Of a stretch of DNA of 24,161 nucleotides, positions 247 through 13,039 are shown piece by piece. Position numbers and translations under genes: made by a program. How positions within the stretch are numbered: the first letter of the stretch is position 1; every line of letters begins with the position of its first letter. Source of the DNA: a virus. Where the stretch lies: positions 1 to 24,161 of IMG/VR virus record IMGVR_UViG_3300020281_000127. The stretch is one strand, 5' to 3'. The notes beneath the pieces are model-generated. The model was not told the origin of the DNA, did no database searches, and was given only the letters and a program-made list of their open reading frames with translations.

Positions 247-262
247 ATAGTCGTACTATAAT
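247..262 (+). promoter_or_regulatory. Probable promoter -10 box overlapping dyad operator (copy A)
   Basis: Positions 247-259 read ATAGTCGTACTAT, a perfect inverted repeat with 5-bp arms and a 3-base centre. The right arm runs into TATAAT at 257-262, a consensus -10 box about 40 bases before the start of the gene at 304. I see no good -35 box at the expected distance, so the promoter may need an activator. The same dyad recurs at 2770, 2793 and 3524, and with a 2-base centre at 2364. Overlap with the -10 box suggests repression; this is inference. The rest of 182-303 is AT-rich noncoding DNA. Confidence 0.55.
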
Positions 263-303
263 AGATTTGTGTTTAACTAAACGGCCAATGGCCAGGAGAC
301 AAT

Positions 304-720
304 ATGACTAAACGCAAAATATATGAAGTACCTAGAGATCAAGGTATTTTTAGGGGCAACGATAAACCTACGCCTTTGGCTTTGTTTATGGAGCGCGTAA
401 ATGATAAGAAGATCTCGGATCCCGAGACAATTCATTTCTTAGAACAACATTTCGTCTTAATGGATCGATACATTGCAGAGCATAAAGGCTTTGAATGGCG
501 CCTTCCATTTCGCGGCGAAGGATCTCCCTCAATCGGCAATATGTCATTTTCGACAAACGCTATCATTTATGATTGGGAGCGAGAGATCTTTGAAGATTGT
601 TTGTTGGAAGGAATGGATCCGGAAGAGATCCTGGAAAAGAAGATCTCTAAACAAGTCCTTACAGACGCCGATAGAGAGGTAGATCTGGCCAGGAAATATT
701 TAGAGCATATATCTAGTTAG
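304..720 (+). CDS. Small conserved-looking phage protein, function unknown
   Basis: This encodes 138 residues from ATG at 304, with AGGAG at 294-298 giving a good ribosome site. The protein is mixed charged and soluble, with no membrane segment. Its C-terminal third (roughly residues 95-138) is strongly acidic and helical, containing EDCLLEGMDPEEILEKK and AREYLEH-like helix patterns. I recognise no family. It stands alone between a probable promoter with an operator at 247-262 and a strong terminator at 741-763, so it forms its own transcription unit. That arrangement suggests a separately regulated gene rather than the end of a long operon. Confidence 0.8.
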   Translation: MTKRKIYEVPRDQGIFRGNDKPTPLALFMERVNDKKISDPETIHFLEQHFVLMDRYIAEHKGFEWRLPFRGEGSPSIGNMSFSTNAIIYDWEREIFEDCLLEGMDPEEILEKKISKQVLTDADREVDLARKYLEHISS

Positions 721-740
721 GCAATACCTCTAGCTACATT

Positions 741-763
741 AAGGCCCCGCAAGGGGCCTTTTT
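741..763 (+). terminator. Rho-independent terminator after the 304-720 gene
   Basis: A perfect 8-bp stem, AAGGCCCC (741-748) with GGGGCCTT (753-760), encloses a GCAA tetraloop of GNRA type and runs into TTTTT at 759-763. It lies 20 bases after the stop codon. There is no T-run on the opposite strand, so it works rightward only. Confidence 0.9.
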
Positions 764-1019
764 GTATTCTGAGGATCTGATACCTCATAGGGCCAGAACG
801 GGCCGCGTCTGCGGTAATATGCGTTCCTACATAGACATATATATAAACATATATAGGCGGCGCCCTTGAGAGGCCGCGCCTAAGACTAGGCGAGATCCAG
901 GAGCGGTAGCGCGTACGAAAGCAAAGTATGGGGAGGAGGGGGAGAATAAAGCCTTCTAGAAGGCCAGGAGAAGGCCAGGGAGGGAGAATAAAATAAAGGT
1001 AGGGGGAAGGAGCGGGAAA
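764..1019. other. Noncoding inter-operon region with purine-rich tract and repeats
   Basis: No gene is supported in these 256 bases, which lie between two convergent transcription units. The left half alternates AT (TATATATAAACATATATA near 838-856) with GC-rich DNA. From 921 to 1018 the plus strand is almost all purine and contains runs such as GGGGAGGAGGGGG (930-942). GGGAGAATAAA occurs twice (940-950 and 982-992). AGAAGGCCAGG occurs twice in direct tandem (958-968 and 969-979). The setting would suit an origin, a packaging site or a termination zone; the sequence does not decide between them. Confidence 0.6.
944..964 (-). terminator. Weak candidate terminator for the leftward cassette
   Basis: GCCTTCTAGAAGGC at 951-964 is a perfect 14-bp palindrome that could fold as a 5-bp stem with a CTAG loop. 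Read on the minus strand it is followed by TTTATTCT, a poor U-tract. It lies about 55 bases beyond the stop codon at 1020. The stem is short, so this is tentative. Confidence 0.3.
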
Positions 1020-1253
1020 CTACAAACGGGCCGCCAGGACGGCGAGAATAGCTATAAGATTGATATTAGTTAGTAGGAGGAGGATCGCCAGGATCGTATG
1101 ATAATAGATCCAACGAGTTTTATAGGCGTTGTCTATTGTTAGATCTTCCGGATCAGGATCCCCGGCCGGATCAAATTTTCTTTTTAGATCTTTCATTGCT
1201 TTTTCTGTTTGGAGATCTTCTCTGGGATATCCATATTTACTGTATCTTACCAT
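1020..1253 (-). CDS. Small membrane protein, last gene of the leftward cassette
   Basis: This encodes 77 residues from ATG at 1253, overlapping the upstream gene by 17 bases, as is usual in this cassette. The N-terminal half is charged and soluble (KDLKRKFDPAGDPDPEDL near residues 22-39). The C-terminal third is strongly hydrophobic, roughly residues 49-76, and contains AILLLLTNINLIAILAVLAARL-like composition with a central Asn that may break it into a hairpin. It is therefore a tail-anchored or hairpin membrane protein with a cytoplasmic N-terminus. No family is recognised. Being phage-encoded, small and membrane-bound, it could act in superinfection exclusion or lysis timing; that is a guess. 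Confidence 0.7.
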   Translation of the reverse strand: MVRYSKYGYPREDLQTEKAMKDLKRKFDPAGDPDPEDLTIDNAYKTRWIYYHTILAILLLLTNINLIAILAVLAARL

Positions 1254-1554
1254 TTACCTTCTGCATTTCTTTCCAGGCTTTGTTGATTTTTACCTGGCTT
1301 GTTTTATCGAATACCTCCAGGGGATAAACATTACGATCTCCAAATCCTATATCGTCTTTTTTTTGATAAGAGGCAAACGTCCTTACATATTTACGGCCGT
1401 CTAATTCCTGGATATCGTACAGATAACAATCAGTATGGATCTCGCAACATTTCATTTTATTAAAATCGTCGGATCCAACGGTTGTTGCGTCTCCGGCTAT
1501 GTCGATCCATAGCAACTGCAACTTAGCGTGACATTTATCTCCAATCTTAATCAT
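1237..1554 (-). CDS. Hypothetical small protein with possible beta-barrel character
   Basis: This encodes 105 residues from ATG at 1554. The start overlaps the end of the upstream 54-residue gene in the sequence ATGATTAA, so the two are probably translationally coupled. The protein begins IKIGDKCHAKL and has several alternating hydrophobic stretches (KLQLLWIDIAG, CYLYDIQEL, KYVRTFASY) suggestive of beta strands. Cysteines fall near residues 9, 36, 37 and 43. It has no membrane segment or signal peptide. I do not recognise the family. It is the longest gene of the leftward cassette. Confidence 0.7.
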   Translation of the reverse strand: MIKIGDKCHAKLQLLWIDIAGDATTVGSDDFNKMKCCEIHTDCYLYDIQELDGRKYVRTFASYQKKDDIGFGDRNVYPLEVFDKTSQVKINKAWKEMQKVNGKIQ

Positions 1555-1711
1555 CTAAGGTTTCTCTTACCTGGTATCGCTCATATAAAAAATCTAGATT
1601 ATTGAGGATATATTCTTCATACGAGATCTCTTTTTCTAAATACGCTCTGCGTTCTTTCATTGCCTCTGCATACATATTCCTAGTAAATGCCGCAAAACTA
1701 ATATCGTTCAT
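1547..1711 (-). CDS. Small helical protein of 54 residues, unrecognised
   Basis: This short frame runs from ATG at 1711 to TAA at 1547-1549. The start has AAGGA a few bases upstream and overlaps the TGA of the preceding gene in ATGA (1708-1711). The stop overlaps the ATG of the next gene. This chain of overlaps is the main evidence that it is real. The protein is highly helical with mixed charge: MNDISFAAFTRNMYAEAMKE at the start, followed by an Arg/Tyr/Glu-rich stretch and a LDFLYERYQ segment. No motif is recognised. Confidence 0.65.
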   Translation of the reverse strand: MNDISFAAFTRNMYAEAMKERRAYLEKEISYEEYILNNLDFLYERYQVRETLDD

Positions 1712-1860
1712 TTTCCTTGGCCTCTATATTTTTTCCAGGATCTTCTACGGTGTTTATTCATATGAGACATAGATACGTTTTTCCTGGATCCTTGAGAAGT
1801 TTTCTTGCCTCGCGCTCCCGTGACGCTTTCGTGTTGGACGTTCTTAAATACCTTTGCCAT
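1708..1860 (-). CDS. Small strongly basic protein of 50 residues
   Basis: The frame runs from ATG at 1860 to TGA at 1708-1710. It overlaps the 84-residue gene upstream by 17 bases and the 54-residue gene downstream by 4 (ATGA). The product is very basic, with clusters GARGKK (residues 15-20) and HRRRSWKKYRGQGK at the C-terminus, and little hydrophobic core. It may bind nucleic acid or be disordered. It is too short to place in a family. Overlap on both sides with a shared reading direction argues that it is a real gene. Confidence 0.6.
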   Translation of the reverse strand: MAKVFKNVQHESVTGARGKKTSQGSRKNVSMSHMNKHRRRSWKKYRGQGK

Positions 1861-2098
1861 TTTCTAGAGGATCCTCAACTTTTTCGATCCTGGTTTTTAA
1901 TTGATATCTAATATGACGATCTAACAATGTTAAAAAATTCTTGCTCTCTATTGGGAGATCTCCTTCCTGGCCGTGTACTAAATAATTCATACACTTAACA
2001 TATAGTAAGGGGATTGCTTGTTCTCCAGAGTTTACTAGATCGTCTTTATGGGCCTCATAAAAATCCTGGGCCAATAAATTTAAGTTTTCAATATTCAC
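1844..2098 (-). CDS. Hypothetical 84-residue protein, GTG start
   Basis: The start is GTG at 2098, supported by GGAGG eight bases upstream and by an 11-base overlap with the upstream gene. The protein is helical and acidic (NLNLLAQDFYEAHKDDLVNSG near the N-terminus, LLYVKCMNYLV in the middle), with a charged C-terminus ending VEDPLENGKGI. There is no membrane segment. The family is not recognised. It shares the high GATC density of its neighbours, so it has been part of this genome for a long time. Confidence 0.7.
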   Translation of the reverse strand: MNIENLNLLAQDFYEAHKDDLVNSGEQAIPLLYVKCMNYLVHGQEGDLPIESKNFLTLLDRHIRYQLKTRIEKVEDPLENGKGI

Positions 2099-2285
2099 GG
2101 TTAGCCTCCATTTCTTGTCCTGGATCCTTTTCCCAACCTAATTGCAGATCTTTATGTTTAGATCTTAGATCCTTGGCGTAGGATCTTAAATCGTGTTTGT
2201 ATTGCTTGGGGATCCAAACGGTCGTTTTGATTAAACCATTTTCTATATTCTTTTGTTTGTATCGCTCCTGGTTTTTGTACTTCAT
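2088..2285 (-). CDS. Possible ribbon-helix-helix DNA-binding protein
   Basis: I place the start at ATG 2285 (65 residues). GGAGAG lies just upstream, whereas a TTG at 2309 in the same frame has no ribosome site. The protein is very basic. Residues about 22-45 read IKTTVWIPKQYKHDLRSYAK, a short strand followed by an amphipathic helix, the pattern that begins Arc/CopG-type ribbon-helix-helix repressors. Only one such unit is visible, and the C-terminus is charged. A dyad at 2320-2336 and an operator at 2364-2375 lie just upstream, which would suit an autoregulator. The assignment is by pattern only. Confidence 0.5.
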   Translation of the reverse strand: MKYKNQERYKQKNIENGLIKTTVWIPKQYKHDLRSYAKDLRSKHKDLQLGWEKDPGQEMEANREY

Positions 2286-2319
2286 AAACTCTCCTCTTTT
2301 TCCAGACAAAGAAGGGCAA

Positions 2320-2336
2320 TGTATTCTGTCAATACA
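2320..2336. promoter_or_regulatory. Dyad TGTATT-N5-AATACA upstream of the possible RHH gene
   Basis: Positions 2320-2325 (TGTATT) and 2331-2336 (AATACA) form a perfect 6-bp inverted repeat around CTGTC. On the minus strand the same bases contain TTGACA, a consensus -35 box, but I find no good -10 box at 16-18 bases. It lies 35 bases upstream of the start at 2285. Confidence 0.4.
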
Positions 2337-2360
2337 AACATAGGGCCTTGGCCTTATTAA

Positions 2361-2558
2361 TTAATAGTCAACTATTAATAGATTATTCAGAGGCTCTTTT
2401 TTAGTACGGATCCTGGATACTTCGTCGTCATAAAGTGTCGCTTTTCCGTCCTTAATATTGAGTACCGTACAAAAAAAAGTAGATCTCTTTATGCGTACTC
2501 GATCTCCTCGACGAATTGCCAATGGCTCGTCTCTCTCTCCATATAATGCCTCAGACAT
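2361..2558 (-). CDS. Small protein with SH3/KOW-like sequence pattern
   Basis: This encodes 65 residues from ATG at 2558, which directly follows the TAA of the upstream gene, with GAGG five bases before the ATG. Residues about 16-45 (RRGDRVRIKRSTFFCTVLNI then KDGKATLYDDE) look like a small beta barrel of SH3 or KOW type, in which a GDxVxV strand is followed by a TVLxIxDGKATL strand pair. Such folds bind nucleic acid or protein. This is a pattern judgement with no catalytic residues. Its stop codon is part of an operator-like dyad at 2361-2378. Confidence 0.65.
   Translation of the reverse strand: MSEALYGERDEPLAIRRGDRVRIKRSTFFCTVLNIKDGKATLYDDEVSRIRTKKEPLNNLLIVDY
2364..2375. promoter_or_regulatory. 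Operator-like dyad, copy B (2-base centre)
   Basis: ATAGT (2364-2368) and ACTAT (2371-2375) are separated by CA. The dyad extends to 8-bp arms, TTAATAGT and ACTATTAA, over 2361-2378. It has the same arms as the copies at 247, 2770, 2793 and 3524 but a spacer one base shorter. It sits at the stop codon of one leftward gene and about 80 bases upstream of the next start. Confidence 0.5.
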
Positions 2559-2753
2559 TTAAGCCTCGGTCACTAGATCTGATAATGGATCCTTATGAAT
2601 AAAAGTCTTTTTCTGAGTGAGAACTTGATATCCGTTTGCTCTAAGTCTCTCGGCTTTATCTTTTGCCAGGCGCTTATCACGAAACTGACACCAAATATAT
2701 CCGTTCAACTCAGGCATAAAATATCCTACTTTGTATAAAACTTGAGAATTCAT
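2559..2753 (-). CDS. First gene of the leftward cassette, unrecognised 64-residue protein
   Basis: I place the start at ATG 2753, because AAGGAGG lies five bases before it; a TTG at 2768 in frame would put this strong ribosome site inside the gene. The product is compact, with hydrophobic strands (VLYKVGYFMP, YIWCQFR) followed by a basic helix (KRLAKDKAERLRANG) and a C-terminal strand (YQVLTQKK). That is a possible alpha/beta fold. No family is recognised. It is the gene next to the divergent control region and its two operator copies, so it should be the first to respond to that regulator. Confidence 0.7.
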   Translation of the reverse strand: MNSQVLYKVGYFMPELNGYIWCQFRDKRLAKDKAERLRANGYQVLTQKKTFIHKDPLSDLVTEA

Positions 2754-2769
2754 ATTTACCTCCTTCAAG

Positions 2770-2805
2770 TTAGTAAGACTATTTTAATTGATGTAGTACA
2801 ACTAT
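2770..2805. promoter_or_regulatory. Pair of dyad operators (copies C and D) in divergent control region
   Basis: TTAGT-AAG-ACTAT (2770-2782) and GTAGT-ACA-ACTAT (2793-2805) are two copies of the ATAGT-N3-ACTAT dyad, with centres 23 bases apart, about two helical turns. They lie between the leftward cassette (start 2753) and the rightward TerS gene (start 2878). Two adjacent copies would allow cooperative binding. Copy C is 17 bases upstream of the leftward ATG. Confidence 0.6.
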
Positions 2806-2837
2806 TGCAAATTGCGTACGATCCTCAAACTGTTTTA

Positions 2838-2867
2838 TATATAGCAAATCGTTTATAATTTTGGCAA
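2838..2867 (-). promoter_or_regulatory. Candidate promoter for the leftward cassette
   Basis: On the minus strand TTGCCA (2867-2862) is followed after 18 bases by TATATA (2843-2838), a fair sigma70-like pair. Transcription would start near 2831 and pass through both operators before the gene at 2753. On the plus strand the same region has TATAAT at 2854-2859, which could serve TerS, but its -35 box is poor. Confidence 0.4.
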
Positions 2868-2877
2868 TGGAGATCCA

Positions 2878-3357
2878 ATGAAAGAGATCAAAAGACAAGA
2901 AGGTAAACCCGGACGTAAGATGAAGATCTTAACCGAACAAGACTGTTTAGCTATAACTGAGGCCGCAAAGTCTGGCCTTGGCATAATGGATATATGTAAA
3001 ACCTTGGATATTTCATATGATGTATGGACAAGGGAAAGTAAAAAACCAGAAATAAAAGACGCATTAAAAAGAGGGCAATCGCTCGGTAAAAAAGAAATTG
3101 TAAACGCCCTTTTCCAAAATGCGGCCAAAGGAAACACCGTAGCGCAGATCTTTTGGCTAAAAAATAAGGGCGGCCAGGGAGAATGGACGGATCGCCAGGA
3201 AACAGAGATCAACATAAATTTACGAGAGATCCTGGATAATGCTAATGCGAGGATCCAACAAAATAACAACACGAATATTATCGAAGGCGAGAGCGTTGAT
3301 ATAACGGGCCTGGAGGATCCTGGCCAACATCCTAAAAAGAAGATCCAGGAAGATTAG
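2878..3357 (+). CDS. Terminase small subunit
   Basis: This 159-residue protein is the likely DNA-recognition subunit of the packaging motor, which binds the phage packaging site and passes DNA to TerL. A helix-turn-helix lies at about residues 35-52 (LGIMDICKTLDISYDVW). It is followed by a helical segment with NAAKGNTVAQIFWLKNKG (residues 81-98), a pattern I know from phage small terminases. The C-terminus is polar and probably disordered. GGAG at 2869-2872 supports the ATG at 2878. TerL follows after one intervening gene, which strengthens the call. It is the first gene of the rightward morphogenesis run. Confidence 0.85.
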   Translation: MKEIKRQEGKPGRKMKILTEQDCLAITEAAKSGLGIMDICKTLDISYDVWTRESKKPEIKDALKRGQSLGKKEIVNALFQNAAKGNTVAQIFWLKNKGGQGEWTDRQETEININLREILDNANARIQQNNNTNIIEGESVDITGLEDPGQHPKKKIQED

Positions 3358-3425
3358 GCCCAAGATTTATGACTAAGATCCAATCAATAAAATCTCTCCA
3401 TTTATACCTAGATCTTAATCAGAAC

Positions 3426-3513
3426 GGGGCCGGTGTTTTTTTAGCGAAAAACACCCCCCCTAAAAAAAATCGCCTAGGTCTTTGCCTTGCGACTATATGA
3501 CTAATTTTTTTTT
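3426..3513 (+). other. Unusual hairpin and A8/T9 tracts between TerS and the nuclease gene
   Basis: GGTGTTTTT (3432-3440) pairs perfectly with AAAAACACC (3447-3455) around a TTAGCG loop. The stem can extend, past a CC bulge, with GGGG (3426-3429) on CCCC (3456-3459). It is followed by A8 (3462-3469) and, after 35 bases, by T9 (3505-3513), which could pair with each other. There is no T-run straight after the stem, so it is not a normal terminator. Lying next to TerS, it could be part of the packaging site or an attenuator. The 177-base gap 3358-3534 has no gene. Confidence 0.5.
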
Positions 3514-3523
3514 ATTTTATGAA

Positions 3524-3536
3524 ATAGTCTTACTAT
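3524..3536. promoter_or_regulatory. Dyad operator (copy E) overlapping a start codon
   Basis: ATAGT-CTT-ACTAT at 3524-3536 is a perfect copy of the dyad. Its last two bases are the first two of the ATG at 3535. Just upstream, 3492-3503 has a direct form of the half-site, ACTAT-ATG-ACTA. There is no purine-rich ribosome site before this ATG. Confidence 0.6.
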
Positions 3537-3888
3537 GAAACCTCAATCCGCAAAACAAAAAGGAAGATTATTACAACAATGGTTTAGAACGTTGCTTATG
3601 GATCTATTGGGCCTGGCAAATACAGATATTGTTTCTAGGCCAATGGGATCTCGCGGAGAGGATCTAATTATTGGAGACGAAAGCAGAAAATTATTTCCAT
3701 ACTCGATTGAATGTAAAAACCAGGAGGCCGTAAATGTATGGAAGTCATATGAACAAGCAAAATATAACTCAAACGAATACGAGCCTTTACTTGTAATAAA
3801 ACGTAATAGAGTTTTACCGCTTGTCGTTGTTGACGCAAAACATTTTGTCGGATTGATAAAGAGGTTAAACGAATATGAAAAACAGTAA
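3535..3888 (+). CDS. PD-(D/E)XK-type nuclease
   Basis: This is a 117-residue protein with the layout of a small PD-(D/E)XK nuclease. A basic N-terminal helix (KQKGRLLQQWFRTLL, residues 8-22) is followed by SRPMGSRGED with D43 as the first acidic ligand. Next comes YSIECKN with E59 and K61 forming the E-x-K core, then a helix and strand (PLLVIKRN). These residues normally bind metal and cut DNA. Phage relatives are annotated as endonucleases or Holliday-junction resolvases; resolution of branched DNA before packaging is a likely role. It sits between TerS and TerL and overlaps TerL by 14 bases. The ATG lies inside an operator and lacks a clear ribosome site. Confidence 0.8.
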   Translation: MKPQSAKQKGRLLQQWFRTLLMDLLGLANTDIVSRPMGSRGEDLIIGDESRKLFPYSIECKNQEAVNVWKSYEQAKYNSNEYEPLLVIKRNRVLPLVVVDAKHFVGLIKRLNEYEKQ

Positions 3889-5407
3889 TCTAGATAAAGA
3901 GTTAATGGCCGCAGTATGGTCGCCTGGCATAAAAGATAGTCCATTAAAATTTGTAAAATTTATTTTTGAATGGGATAAGCCTGGAACACCCCTGGAAGGT
4001 TTTAAAGGCCCAAGGAAGTGGCAAGAAAAAATTTTATTAGATCTTGAGAGACATATAGCAAGAAACCAGGGGAATTTAGATCCAGAAATGTTCCGCCAGG
4101 CCGTAGCGTCGGGAAGGGGAATAGGAAAGTCTGCATTAGTAGCCTGGATAATATTATGGATGTTATCAACCAGATTAGGATCTACAACAATCGTCACGGC
4201 AAACACCGAACAACAATTAAGATCTAGAACTTGGGCCGAGTTAGGAAAATGGCTTACTTTATCAATCAACGGATATTGGTTTAAAAAAGCCGCAACAACA
4301 ATCAGGCCAACGGCCTGGTTTGAAGAGGCCTTGAAAAAGGATCTTAAAATTGACACCGGATATTATTACGCCCAGGCGCAATTATGGAGCGAGGAAAGTC
4401 CGGACGCTTTTGCCGGTGTGCATAGTAATTATGGGATCTGTTTGATAATGGATGAGGCCTCCGGTATTCCTGGCCCAATCTATTCTGTATCAGAGGGATT
4501 TTTTACAGAGCCGACGGCCGATAGATATTGGTTTGCTTTTTCAAATCCAAGACGAAACTCTGGCCCGTTTTATGAGAGTTTTCATTCTGCTAAAAGTTAT
4601 TGGCAAACTTCTCAGATCGATAGCCGTACCGTAGAAGGAACGGACAAAGAATTATTTAACAAAATGCTAGAGCAATACGGAGAAGATAGTAGCGTTGCTC
4701 GAGTAGAGGTTATGGGAGAGTTTCCTAGAGCCGACGACGATACAGTAATAGGAATGGACATAGTGAGATCCGCAGTAGATCGAGACGTTGCGTTGACGGC
4801 CTCCGCTCCGATTGTTTGGGGCCTGGATGTAGCAAGAACGGGATCCGACAAAACTGCTTTATGCGTACGCCAGGGAAACCATATACTTGAAATGCAGACT
4901 TATAATTCAATGGATCTAATGCAATTATGCGGAGCGATCAAAAATAAATATGAGGATGAAATAAATAATCGGCCTCAAGAAATTTTGATTGATGTTATCG
5001 GTATCGGAGCCGGTGTTGTCGATCGTTTAGCGGAGCAAGATCTTCCGGTACGAGGAATAAACGTTTCAGAGGCGCCCTCGACGAAAAAAAATTATTTGAA
5101 CTTGAGAGCCGAACTTTGGTTTCAAGTAAGAGATTGGTTGGCGGGGCGAGATGTCCGTATTCCCAATGACGACGGCTTAGTCGCGGAACTTACCTCGCCA
5201 ATCTACAAATACACCTCAACGGGAAAATTGAAGATTGAGAGTAAGGATGAAATGAGGAGGCGAGGAATAAAATCTCCAGACAAAGCAGACGCATTATGTT
5301 TGACAATGGCAAGTGCGGCCGCGTCTTTTGGAGGAGGAGCAAATAATTCTTTTATGGGCTATAATTTTCGTAGGCCGTTAAAGAGTAAAATTTACAGAGT
5401 AGGATAA
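3875..5407 (+). CDS. Terminase large subunit
   Basis: This is the ATPase and nuclease of the DNA packaging motor, 510 residues. The N-terminal ATPase has Walker A GRGIGKS at residues 80-86, Walker B ICLIMDE at 188-194 (D193 and E194) and AFSNP at 221-225 in the coupling-motif position. The C-terminal RNase H-like nuclease begins GLDVARTGSDKTA at 316-328 with D318. It continues with LIDVIG (D373) and ends SPDKADAL with D469 and D472, the expected acidic triad region. The length is normal for the family. The start at 3875 overlaps the nuclease gene; a second ATG at 3905 is possible. Confidence 0.95.
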   Translation: MKNSNLDKELMAAVWSPGIKDSPLKFVKFIFEWDKPGTPLEGFKGPRKWQEKILLDLERHIARNQGNLDPEMFRQAVASGRGIGKSALVAWIILWMLSTRLGSTTIVTANTEQQLRSRTWAELGKWLTLSINGYWFKKAATTIRPTAWFEEALKKDLKIDTGYYYAQAQLWSEESPDAFAGVHSNYGICLIMDEASGIPGPIYSVSEGFFTEPTADRYWFAFSNPRRNSGPFYESFHSAKSYWQTSQIDSRTVEGTDKELFNKMLEQYGEDSSVARVEVMGEFPRADDDTVIGMDIVRSAVDRDVALTASAPIVWGLDVARTGSDKTALCVRQGNHILEMQTYNSMDLMQLCGAIKNKYEDEINNRPQEILIDVIGIGAGVVDRLAEQDLPVRGINVSEAPSTKKNYLNLRAELWFQVRDWLAGRDVRIPNDDGLVAELTSPIYKYTSTGKLKIESKDEMRRRGIKSPDKADALCLTMASAAASFGGGANNSFMGYNFRRPLKSKIYRVG

Positions 5408-10084: not shown

Positions 10085-11089
10085 ATGTCCAACAACGAAA
10101 ATGAGAATGGATCTCTAACCCCAATACAAAGTGTTGAAAACGCTTTCCTAGACGCTCTTACCCCCGAAGAGGAAAAGCAAGAAGTCCAGGAGACGGAGGC
10201 AACCGAGATAGCCGAGGAAGAAACCGAGTCAGAAATTCCGGAAGAGGAAACTCTCGAGGAAGGCGAGGAAGAAACCGAGGAGCAATCTGATGAAGTAGAA
10301 ACGGAAGATGATGAAGAAGAGGAGCCGGAACTCTATGCCGTCAAAATTGACGGCCAGGATTACCAGGTATCCCTCGAAGAATTAAAGTCTGGATACTCAC
10401 GTCAAAAAGATTATACGAGAAAAACTCAAGAGTTAGCGGAGTTAAGGAAGGTCACGGAAAGTCAGGGCCAGGATCTTAACGCAAAGCTAAATGAGATCTC
10501 GGAGGAAAAGGCGCTATATAGCGAACTATTACCGAAAATGAAGGCTATGATTAACAATAACCTTCGAGAAGAGCCAGATTGGCAATATTTGATCGATAAC
10601 CAACCTCAAGAATATATGAGGGAAAAAAGAAAATGGGATCAAATGCAAGAAACTTTGAAGTTTGCCGACGCGGAAATGGAACGTCTTAAACAAGAAGATC
10701 TCCAGGCCCAACAAGTCGAAAGACAAAGGCAAATTTTAGAGGGCCAGAAACTAATTTCTGAGAAATTACCTTCTTGGAATGATGTAAAGGTGGCCCAGGA
10801 CGAGGCGCAAAGTATGGCGCTTTATGCAAAAGAGGATCTTGGATTTACCGCAGAAGAGTTATCGCAAATCTCAGACGGTAGGCTTGTTCTACTTCTTAGA
10901 GACGCCTGGCAATTTAGTAAAACTAAAAAAGCCAGATCTAGGAAACCAAAAGAGGCCCCGGCTAGAGTAGCTAAACCAGGCAATTCTACAAAGATTAAAA
11001 GTAATAAACCGCTAAATGACGCCAAGGCGAGACTGAGGAAGAGCGGCAAAACAAGTGACGCGGCCGCAGTCTTTGAAAAATTAATCTAA
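10085..11089 (+). CDS. Scaffolding protein
   Basis: This is the internal scaffold that directs capsid shell assembly, 334 residues from ATG 10085; GGAG eight bases upstream supports this start over a GTG at 10076. Residues about 25-85 are an extremely acidic, disordered Glu-rich stretch. There follow YAVKIDGQDYQVSLEELKSG and YSRQKDYTRKTQELAELRK, the typical scaffold motif of podoviruses. Long charged coiled coils run through the middle. The C-terminus is basic (KARLRKSGKTSDAAAVFEKL), as expected for the part that binds the capsid protein. It directly precedes the major capsid gene. No prohead protease is visible in the window. Confidence 0.9.
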   Translation: MSNNENENGSLTPIQSVENAFLDALTPEEEKQEVQETEATEIAEEETESEIPEEETLEEGEEETEEQSDEVETEDDEEEEPELYAVKIDGQDYQVSLEELKSGYSRQKDYTRKTQELAELRKVTESQGQDLNAKLNEISEEKALYSELLPKMKAMINNNLREEPDWQYLIDNQPQEYMREKRKWDQMQETLKFADAEMERLKQEDLQAQQVERQRQILEGQKLISEKLPSWNDVKVAQDEAQSMALYAKEDLGFTAEELSQISDGRLVLLLRDAWQFSKTKKARSRKPKEAPARVAKPGNSTKIKSNKPLNDAKARLRKSGKTSDAAAVFEKLI

Positions 11090-12388: not shown

Positions 12389-13039
12389 ATGACGTATGCA
12401 GAACTAAAAACTCAGATAGCCGAGTATCTAAATAGATCGGATCTAACAAATCAACTAGATACATTTATTAAAAATACTGAGGCCGAAGTTAATAGAAAAC
12501 TTCGCCATAAAGATATGGTCAAAAGAGTTATAGCTAATGCAGACAATCAATATTTACAACTTCCAGGAGATTGGCTTGGAGCAATCAATGTAGATCTCCA
12601 GGGAACTAATCCCTCTGTATCACTAAAGCAATTATCTTTAGAGAGTATGGATGATTATCGTACTGCTAATGATGATCCAACCGGACAACCGGTTTACTTT
12701 GCTATCGACGGAGATACTATGGAATTGGCCCCGACACCTTCTGGATCCTATAATTTGCAATTAGTTTACTATGCAGAGATCCCTCCCCTGGGAACAACCA
12801 ATACAGAGAATTTTTTATCTCGTACCGCGCCAGACGTTTATTTATATGGCGCTTTAAAACACGCCTCTATTTATTTAATGGAGGATGAACGTTTGCCCGT
12901 TTTTTCCGGATACTTTGAAAAGGCAATGGAAGAATTGAGGCAACAACAAGCGAAAGCGGATTACCATAAAGGATCCTTATTATTAAAAAGACGAACTTAT
13001 GGAAAACCAAAATCGCAAGTTTATTACTACAAATCTTAA
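12389..13039 (+). CDS. Head-to-tail adaptor protein, SU10-like
   Basis: This 216-residue protein probably forms the ring under the portal. It opens MTYAELKTQIAEYLNRSDLT and continues DTFIKNTEAEVNRKLRHKDM, a helical start typical of podovirus adaptors. It then has a beta-rich part with LQLPGDWLGAINV and YNLQLVYYAEIPPLG, and a helix PDVYLYGALKHASIYLMED. These features match SU10-type adaptors and tail-tubular-A-like proteins. The long charged helix near the C-terminus (YFEKAMEELRQQQAKAD) should contact the portal. The gene order capsid, small protein, adaptor supports the call. Confidence 0.8.
   Translation: MTYAELKTQIAEYLNRSDLTNQLDTFIKNTEAEVNRKLRHKDMVKRVIANADNQYLQLPGDWLGAINVDLQGTNPSVSLKQLSLESMDDYRTANDDPTGQPVYFAIDGDTMELAPTPSGSYNLQLVYYAEIPPLGTTNTENFLSRTAPDVYLYGALKHASIYLMEDERLPVFSGYFEKAMEELRQQQAKADYHKGSLLLKRRTYGKPKSQVYYYKS

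Follow-up and report, generated by a model that had tools for sequence, protein, structure and literature searches.

The 24,161-base virus record IMGVR_UViG_3300020281_000127 (positions 1 to 24,161, here called the window) carries short dyads of the form TAGT-N3-ACTA, which are putative operators located around its packaging genes and a leftward gene cassette. Exact cores were found at 248-258, 2771-2781, 2794-2804, 3525-3535 and 10915-10925. Of the 13-bp form ATAGT-N3-ACTAT, two copies are perfect (247-259 and 3524-3536) and two differ from it at one base (2770-2782 and 2793-2805). When the coordinates were re-derived, these four main dyads were located where an earlier note on this DNA had placed them, and they are conserved in relatives. 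The N2 form at 2364-2375 was also present as described in that note, which did not list a second N2 core at 12762, within a gene. The features relevant to the dyads are as follows, with ranks taken from a matrix built from related contigs.

247..259, no strand: putative operator dyad ATAGTCGTACTAT, exact, upstream of gene 304; matrix rank 2 in the window
257..262, + strand: TATAAT -10-like box, read from the sequence, overlapping the right arm of the 247..259 dyad
304..720, + strand: gene for 138 amino acids (aa), an open reading frame downstream of the 247-259 dyad
2091..2285, - strand: gene for a 65-aa phrog_11804 protein (PHROG E 7.8e-7) in the leftward cassette; candidate binder
2364..2375, no strand: N2 form of the dyad within a longer palindrome, upstream of the phrog_11804 gene
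2770..2782, no strand: putative operator dyad of a divergent pair, overlapping the leftward -10; matrix rank 4
2781..2810, - strand: leftward promoter-like site TTGCAA-18-TAAAAT, a consensus match only, overlapped by both dyads of the pair
2793..2805, no strand: putative operator dyad of the divergent pair, in the leftward spacer beside the -35; matrix rank 3
2878..3357, + strand: terminase small subunit gene, terS (phrog_309, E 6.7e-20)
3524..3536, no strand: putative operator dyad, the final bases of which are the first two of the next start codon (TAGTCTTACTATG); matrix rank 1
3535..3888, + strand: RusA-like family gene by its PHROG label (phrog_244, E 1.4e-15)
3875..5407, + strand: terminase large subunit gene, terL (phrog_5902, E 1.5e-50; phrog_2, E 9.4e-44)

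The product of 304..720 had no Pfam or PHROG match. Membership of the N2 form at 2364-2375 in the dyad family is uncertain; upstream of the phrog_11804 gene in relatives, a one-mismatch N3 dyad was found in contig L174 (6036) and a weaker one in L006 (7235).

Lineages bearing the motif, referred to as clade A, were gathered by eight scans of viral contigs, with loci duplicated within one contig counted once. They are the window's own phage, L006/L007/L173, L174, L093 with L177/L185/L289, L087, and the less covered L184 and L288. The window's phage was found to continue in other contigs, as L005 and L092 extend its left end and L178 starts with the same protein at which the window ends; these carry an integrase, a primase, an O-like winged-helix protein and an excisionase-like protein. 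Identity to the window in terL is 86-87% for L006 and L007, 81% for L174 and 75% for both the L093 group and L087, and in TerS it is 66% for L006, 65% for L007, 56% for L174, 53% for L087 and 50% for L093. The window's own phage (L178) and the lineages of L006 and L185 encode a tyrosine integrase, on which basis the clade A phages are probably temperate. No isolate relative was obtained by near DNA match, the isolates giving terL relatives only below 60% identity, and the winged-helix gene had no match among phage records and was not found in a bacterial genome in one scan. Two further clades were distinguished, clade B, in which the winged-helix protein is 37-41% and TerS about 41% identical, and clade C, in which the primase is 45% identical.

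A census of 2,304 dyad forms (256 half-sites with gaps of 0 to 8) in 36,362 bases from seven related contigs gave TAGT-N3-ACTA the largest excess, 18 seen vs 0.72 expected, and the runner-up was the same word with a one-base shift. The regions were picked because their contigs bear the motif, which affects the count and has little effect on the ranking against other forms, and one site is counted twice (L093 1075 and L185 15152, from one species), giving 17 distinct sites. An expectation of 0.72 exact cores per 36 kb corresponds to about 0.5 per 24 kb, and the figure of about 0.5 chance copies given in the earlier note was therefore right. The matrix was built from 18 sites of relatives only, with the N2 form not scored, and its top four places in the window were 3525, 248, 2794 and 2771 (16.7 to 14.3 bits). 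The next place was 10915 with 9.4 bits, and shuffles gave 3.8 places of 8 bits or more each. As this score is at the level reached by shuffled sequence, the weaker copy that had been pointed out in the scaffold gene (10915-10925) was dropped as background. The site consensus is about TAGT-M-N-K-ACTA, with a slight bias to A or C left of the centre (18 of 22 sites) and to G or T right of it (13 of 22); M/K fits in 31 of 44 half-centres, a weak majority.

The copies occupy the same places in different lineages. In all five lineages in which that stretch is covered, the gene that follows terS has a dyad at its start codon: TAGTNNNACTATG, which includes the start codon, in the window, L006, L007, L174 and L093, and ACTATATG, two bases short of the start-codon register, in L087. 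The gene marked in this way is rusA-like in the window, L006 and L007 and is terL in L174, L093 and L087. Left of the rightward operon, the divergent region contains two copies, some of them degenerate, again in five of five lineages (window 2771/2794; L006 and L007 7627/7647, with one mismatch each; L093 1046/1075; L174 5961/6036). Three lineages have a methylase gene immediately upstream of terS, and in all three a copy is placed within the end of that gene, 18 to 34 bases ahead of terS (L006/L007 8971; L093 2382; L174 4656, with one mismatch). A copy with an adjoining TATAAT follows the replication module in the window (248), L185 (10485) and L288 (12934), and copies precede the integrase gene in two lineages (L178 3532 and 3505, with 13.5 and 11.0 bits; L185 3356). 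The dyad set is thus wider than previously described, as it includes the integrase promoter and the methylase-gene copy before terS, and, with regard to the check proposed earlier, whether conserved copies stay at gene starts, the places of the dyads are conserved in relatives down to about 50% TerS identity. An exact dyad was also seen inside terL at 10300 in L006 and L007 and at 3646 in L174, and is missing from terL of the window. As it lies in the codons for a conserved GSTTI, this copy may be due to chance and was left out of the evidence.

Outside clade A the motif was not found as a set. Clade A representatives contain 22 exact cores in 121 kb with 0 in the reversed control, and clades B and C contain 0 in 178 kb; the B and C loci scanned also have no phrog_11804, g1708 or g1844 gene, the last two being other small genes of the leftward cassette. 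The sister clades without the leftward cassette are also without the motif. The 77 loci of terL relatives (about 75% identity) gave 11 cores in 656 kb vs 8 in the reversed control, and the distant TerS loci (76) gave 3 vs 7. The rusA-like loci (77) gave 23 vs 6, though these copies are scattered and none is at the start of the rusA-like gene. That start had no dyad in 78 of 80 loci with a related gene, the other two being known relatives, and the rusA-like gene was ruled out as the reason for the dyad. As the motif is absent from clades B and C and not set-like elsewhere, it belongs as a set to one clade. The earlier note had named relatives with the same genes and no dyads as evidence that would count against its proposal; within the clade the dyads are kept, and such relatives were found only outside it, namely the 78 rusA-like loci. 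In L302, a distant relative, there is a protein related to phrog_11804 and, after the winged-helix gene, a degenerate site, but no dyad before terL. In clade B (L186-L198, e.g. L194 2877 and 2899) two copies of GGYACTANTAGTACC, 22 bases apart, were observed before the winged-helix gene, and these are possibly that clade's own operator.

Several copies are fused to promoter boxes. At the leftward promoter, TATAAT runs into a dyad arm in L006/L007/L173, L087, L093 and L174, and it merges with an arm at the L185 integrase gene; the departures from TAGT to TAAT are explained by this fusion of the box to the arm. Among 306 sequences, TAGTNNNNCTATAAT was found only in the window's phage (at the 304 promoter and before the L178 integrase gene, 3532) and in L288, where the copy is placed after the winged-helix gene. 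The looser form TATAAT-N2-4-ACTA also occurs in unrelated loci, and it is therefore its place that counts and not its presence. As the dyads overlap -10 boxes, repression would be favoured over activation.

As the dyads form one family and their places are kept to about 50% TerS identity, a single sequence-specific DNA-binding regulator is a good reading of them, and it is likely from these comparisons that they are DNA operators of one transcription regulator common to a clade of uncultured temperate marine phages, which probably acts as a repressor. The suggestion that the 304 gene, the leftward cassette and the packaging genes are under one regulator is upheld for the single family and its conserved places; the binder and any effect on transcription are putative. 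A dimeric protein, most likely phage-encoded, would bind the dyads and repress both the leftward cassette and the rightward packaging operon, as well as the 304 gene and the integrase gene of some members. The leftward promoter would be bracketed by the two bound sites of the divergent region. No clear promoter was found at the start codon following terS; protein bound there could cover a start site or stop an elongating polymerase in the manner of the stoperators of mycobacteriophage L5. Promoter repression is the most likely mechanism, and by this analogy a stoperator-like role at gene junctions is possible.

The repressor sites of the cluster A mycobacteriophage L5 are described (PMC6550527, PMC9283540) as asymmetric, oriented sites of 13 to 14 bp, 20 to 30 per genome. 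Both sets are scattered over a temperate genome with some sites in promoters and others in short gene gaps, and the dyads show the L5-type trait of being both fused to -10-like boxes and located at start codons or gene ends. However, the L5 sites are asymmetric and oriented with transcription, whereas the dyads have a palindromic core with a slight bias, and the window's phage has about six sites (four strong ones in the window and two weaker ones before the L178 integrase gene) compared with 20 to 30. The L5 repressor is described there as blocking elongation, which is proposed for the dyads only by analogy. If the start-codon copies do stop polymerase, the stoperator principle would extend to a palindromic site and beyond the mycobacteriophages in which it was described.

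Several observations weigh against operators of one regulator. The window has no surplus of near-matches: 10 places with up to two mismatches were seen vs 14.6 expected and 9 with up to one mismatch vs 8.2 expected; as counts that tolerate mismatches show no excess there, only the exact cores stand out. The core of the matrix is partly circular, its training sites having been found by motif likeness, and position is therefore the independent evidence. The promoter scan fell below shuffles, with 5 sigma-70-like sites vs 11.7, and the 248 site has no convincing -35, its box at 257..262 not being listed by that scan. One mismatch is present in both divergent sites of L006 and of L174, in L093 1046 and in the L174 terS copy at 4656, and in L087 the divergent copy at 3255 is paired with an N2 variant immediately to its left that carries a further change. 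L006 has no 304-type site, and before the integrase gene no copy was seen in L006/L007 or in L288. The binder could also be supplied by the host.

That last possibility, a host regulator (e.g. of GntR/FadR type) that binds the dyads and couples the phage to the state of the host, is improbable. Operators of the FadR subfamily have GT-N3-AC spacing in most sites, the consensus NyGTM-N0-1-KACNy and TKGT/ACMA boxes (PMC4494728), so that both the spacing and the M-N-K centre of the dyads (the weak majority of half-centres noted above) resemble them. The known boxes differ from TAGT/ACTA, in which the second base is A, and none of 11 phage records had a GntR match over the cut-off; the weak matches, in 4 of the 11, fall at the O-like winged-helix gene. 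A GntR/FadR binder would therefore need to be a host protein. A tRNA-like piece near the L178 integrase gene had no exact match in the bacterial genome contigs searched for a host.

The alternative given in the earlier note, that the dyads are RNA hairpins in 5' leaders controlling translation, is very unlikely. The gene next to terS always has a copy at its start codon, preceded in L006, L007 and L087 by a ribosome-site-like GGAGAG, GGAAGG or AAAGG, and the N2 form, folded on the minus strand, beats shuffles (z -2.9). However, seven of eight folds, those with the N3 sites, are no better than shuffles (z -0.92 to +0.96), the arms retain their letters with no covariation, and the other copies are located at -10-like boxes or inside the methylase gene end. 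Recognition of the dyads by the small terminase subunit as pac or cos elements is equally hard to credit. Copies flank terS on both sides in every lineage covered, and the stretch from terS to the following gene contains a conserved C-rich element, but copies are also present at the 304 and integrase promoters, kilobases from terS, and clade B and other terL relatives have the C-rich element with no dyads at that place. Chance, or common descent without any function, to which the AT-rich DNA, the 10915 copy and perhaps the terL-internal copy would lend themselves, can be set aside almost entirely given the excess in the census and the conserved places beside different genes.

For the operators of a phage-encoded regulator, the shortlist of candidate binders is phrog_11804, which co-occurs best with the motif, followed by the O-like winged-helix protein, with a MarR-like protein disfavoured. 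By profile, phrog_11804 was found in every motif-bearing lineage with a covered cassette (window, L006/L007/L173, L174, L087, L093/L177), and g1844 co-occurs with the motif equally well. The AlphaFold2 model of phrog_11804 is of low confidence (pLDDT 69.5) and has two helices, the second one long. A ribbon-helix-helix label for this protein was not borne out, as the model had no fold match in the PDB, the protein had no Pfam RHH match and the confidence was low. The winged-helix protein (HTH_36, O-like) is found in all clades. The MarR-like protein (L006 4813-5220; L178 4738-5091) has a MarR fold (Foldseek E 2e-4, probability 1.00, TM 0.4-0.5, pLDDT 74) and no Pfam MarR match in the four members scanned. 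It had no profile match in the motif-bearing L185/L177, nor any match by plain search in L184, where only about 140 bases separate the primase and winged-helix genes, and it was disfavoured as binder as it is missing in L185 and L184. In several members the MarR-fold gene adjoins the winged-helix gene.

It is conceivable, though doubtful, that the ~65-aa phrog_11804 protein, for which no DNA-binding fold was recognised, represents a novel type of repressor with TAGT-N3-ACTA as its target, and that by occupying promoters as well as start codons it blocks both promoter and elongation and so silences the packaging genes and the integrase gene. Arc and Mnt are repressors of phage P22, and phrog_11804, as a very small phage protein whose gene lies in a cassette close to its putative sites, would be in keeping with that pattern; the difference is that it is predicted, with low confidence, to have two helices without the ribbon-helix-helix fold. 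The operators of the phage P1 C1 protein are also scattered over a temperate phage genome, but those sites are asymmetric and longer, and the protein is apparently unrelated to anything here. To our knowledge, operators of uncultured marine temperate phages have rarely been identified, and no paper on this phage group turned up in a limited literature search. As comparison alone yields the motif, its places and a shortlist of binders, the lysis-lysogeny or late-gene switch of the clade becomes testable without an isolate.

Other elements were observed in the same sequences. Between terS and the next gene there is a run of C6-C8, often with a paired G run, and then, immediately upstream of the gene, AACTAA(A)ATTTTTT. 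This C-rich element was found at 3357-3535 in the window, at 9480-9660 in L006, in L187, L194 and L196 and in many terL loci (e.g. L062, L069, L083), a range that far exceeds the motif-bearing clade, and a packaging (cos or pac) site is one possibility. Left of the integrase gene, what resembles the 5' half of a tRNA gene up to the anticodon was seen in L178 (3124-3170) and L200 (about 2700-2745), read by eye as Arg TCT and Ser GCT. ARAGORN reported no whole tRNA at these pieces, which are possibly attachment sites of an unusual kind.

GCTG and CAGC are nearly absent from the window (0 + 3 vs 30 + 37 expected) and from L178 (0 + 0 vs 12 + 16). GATG is low, GATC is high (282 vs 152) and CCWGG is high; in the relative L006 these biases are less marked. 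A further conserved stretch, which is non-coding, reads CATAGACATATATA..AACATATATA with a GC-rich hairpin-like run after it, and is present at 797-880 in the window, at 4460-4545 in L006 and in L007 and L173, with neighbours that vary by lineage.

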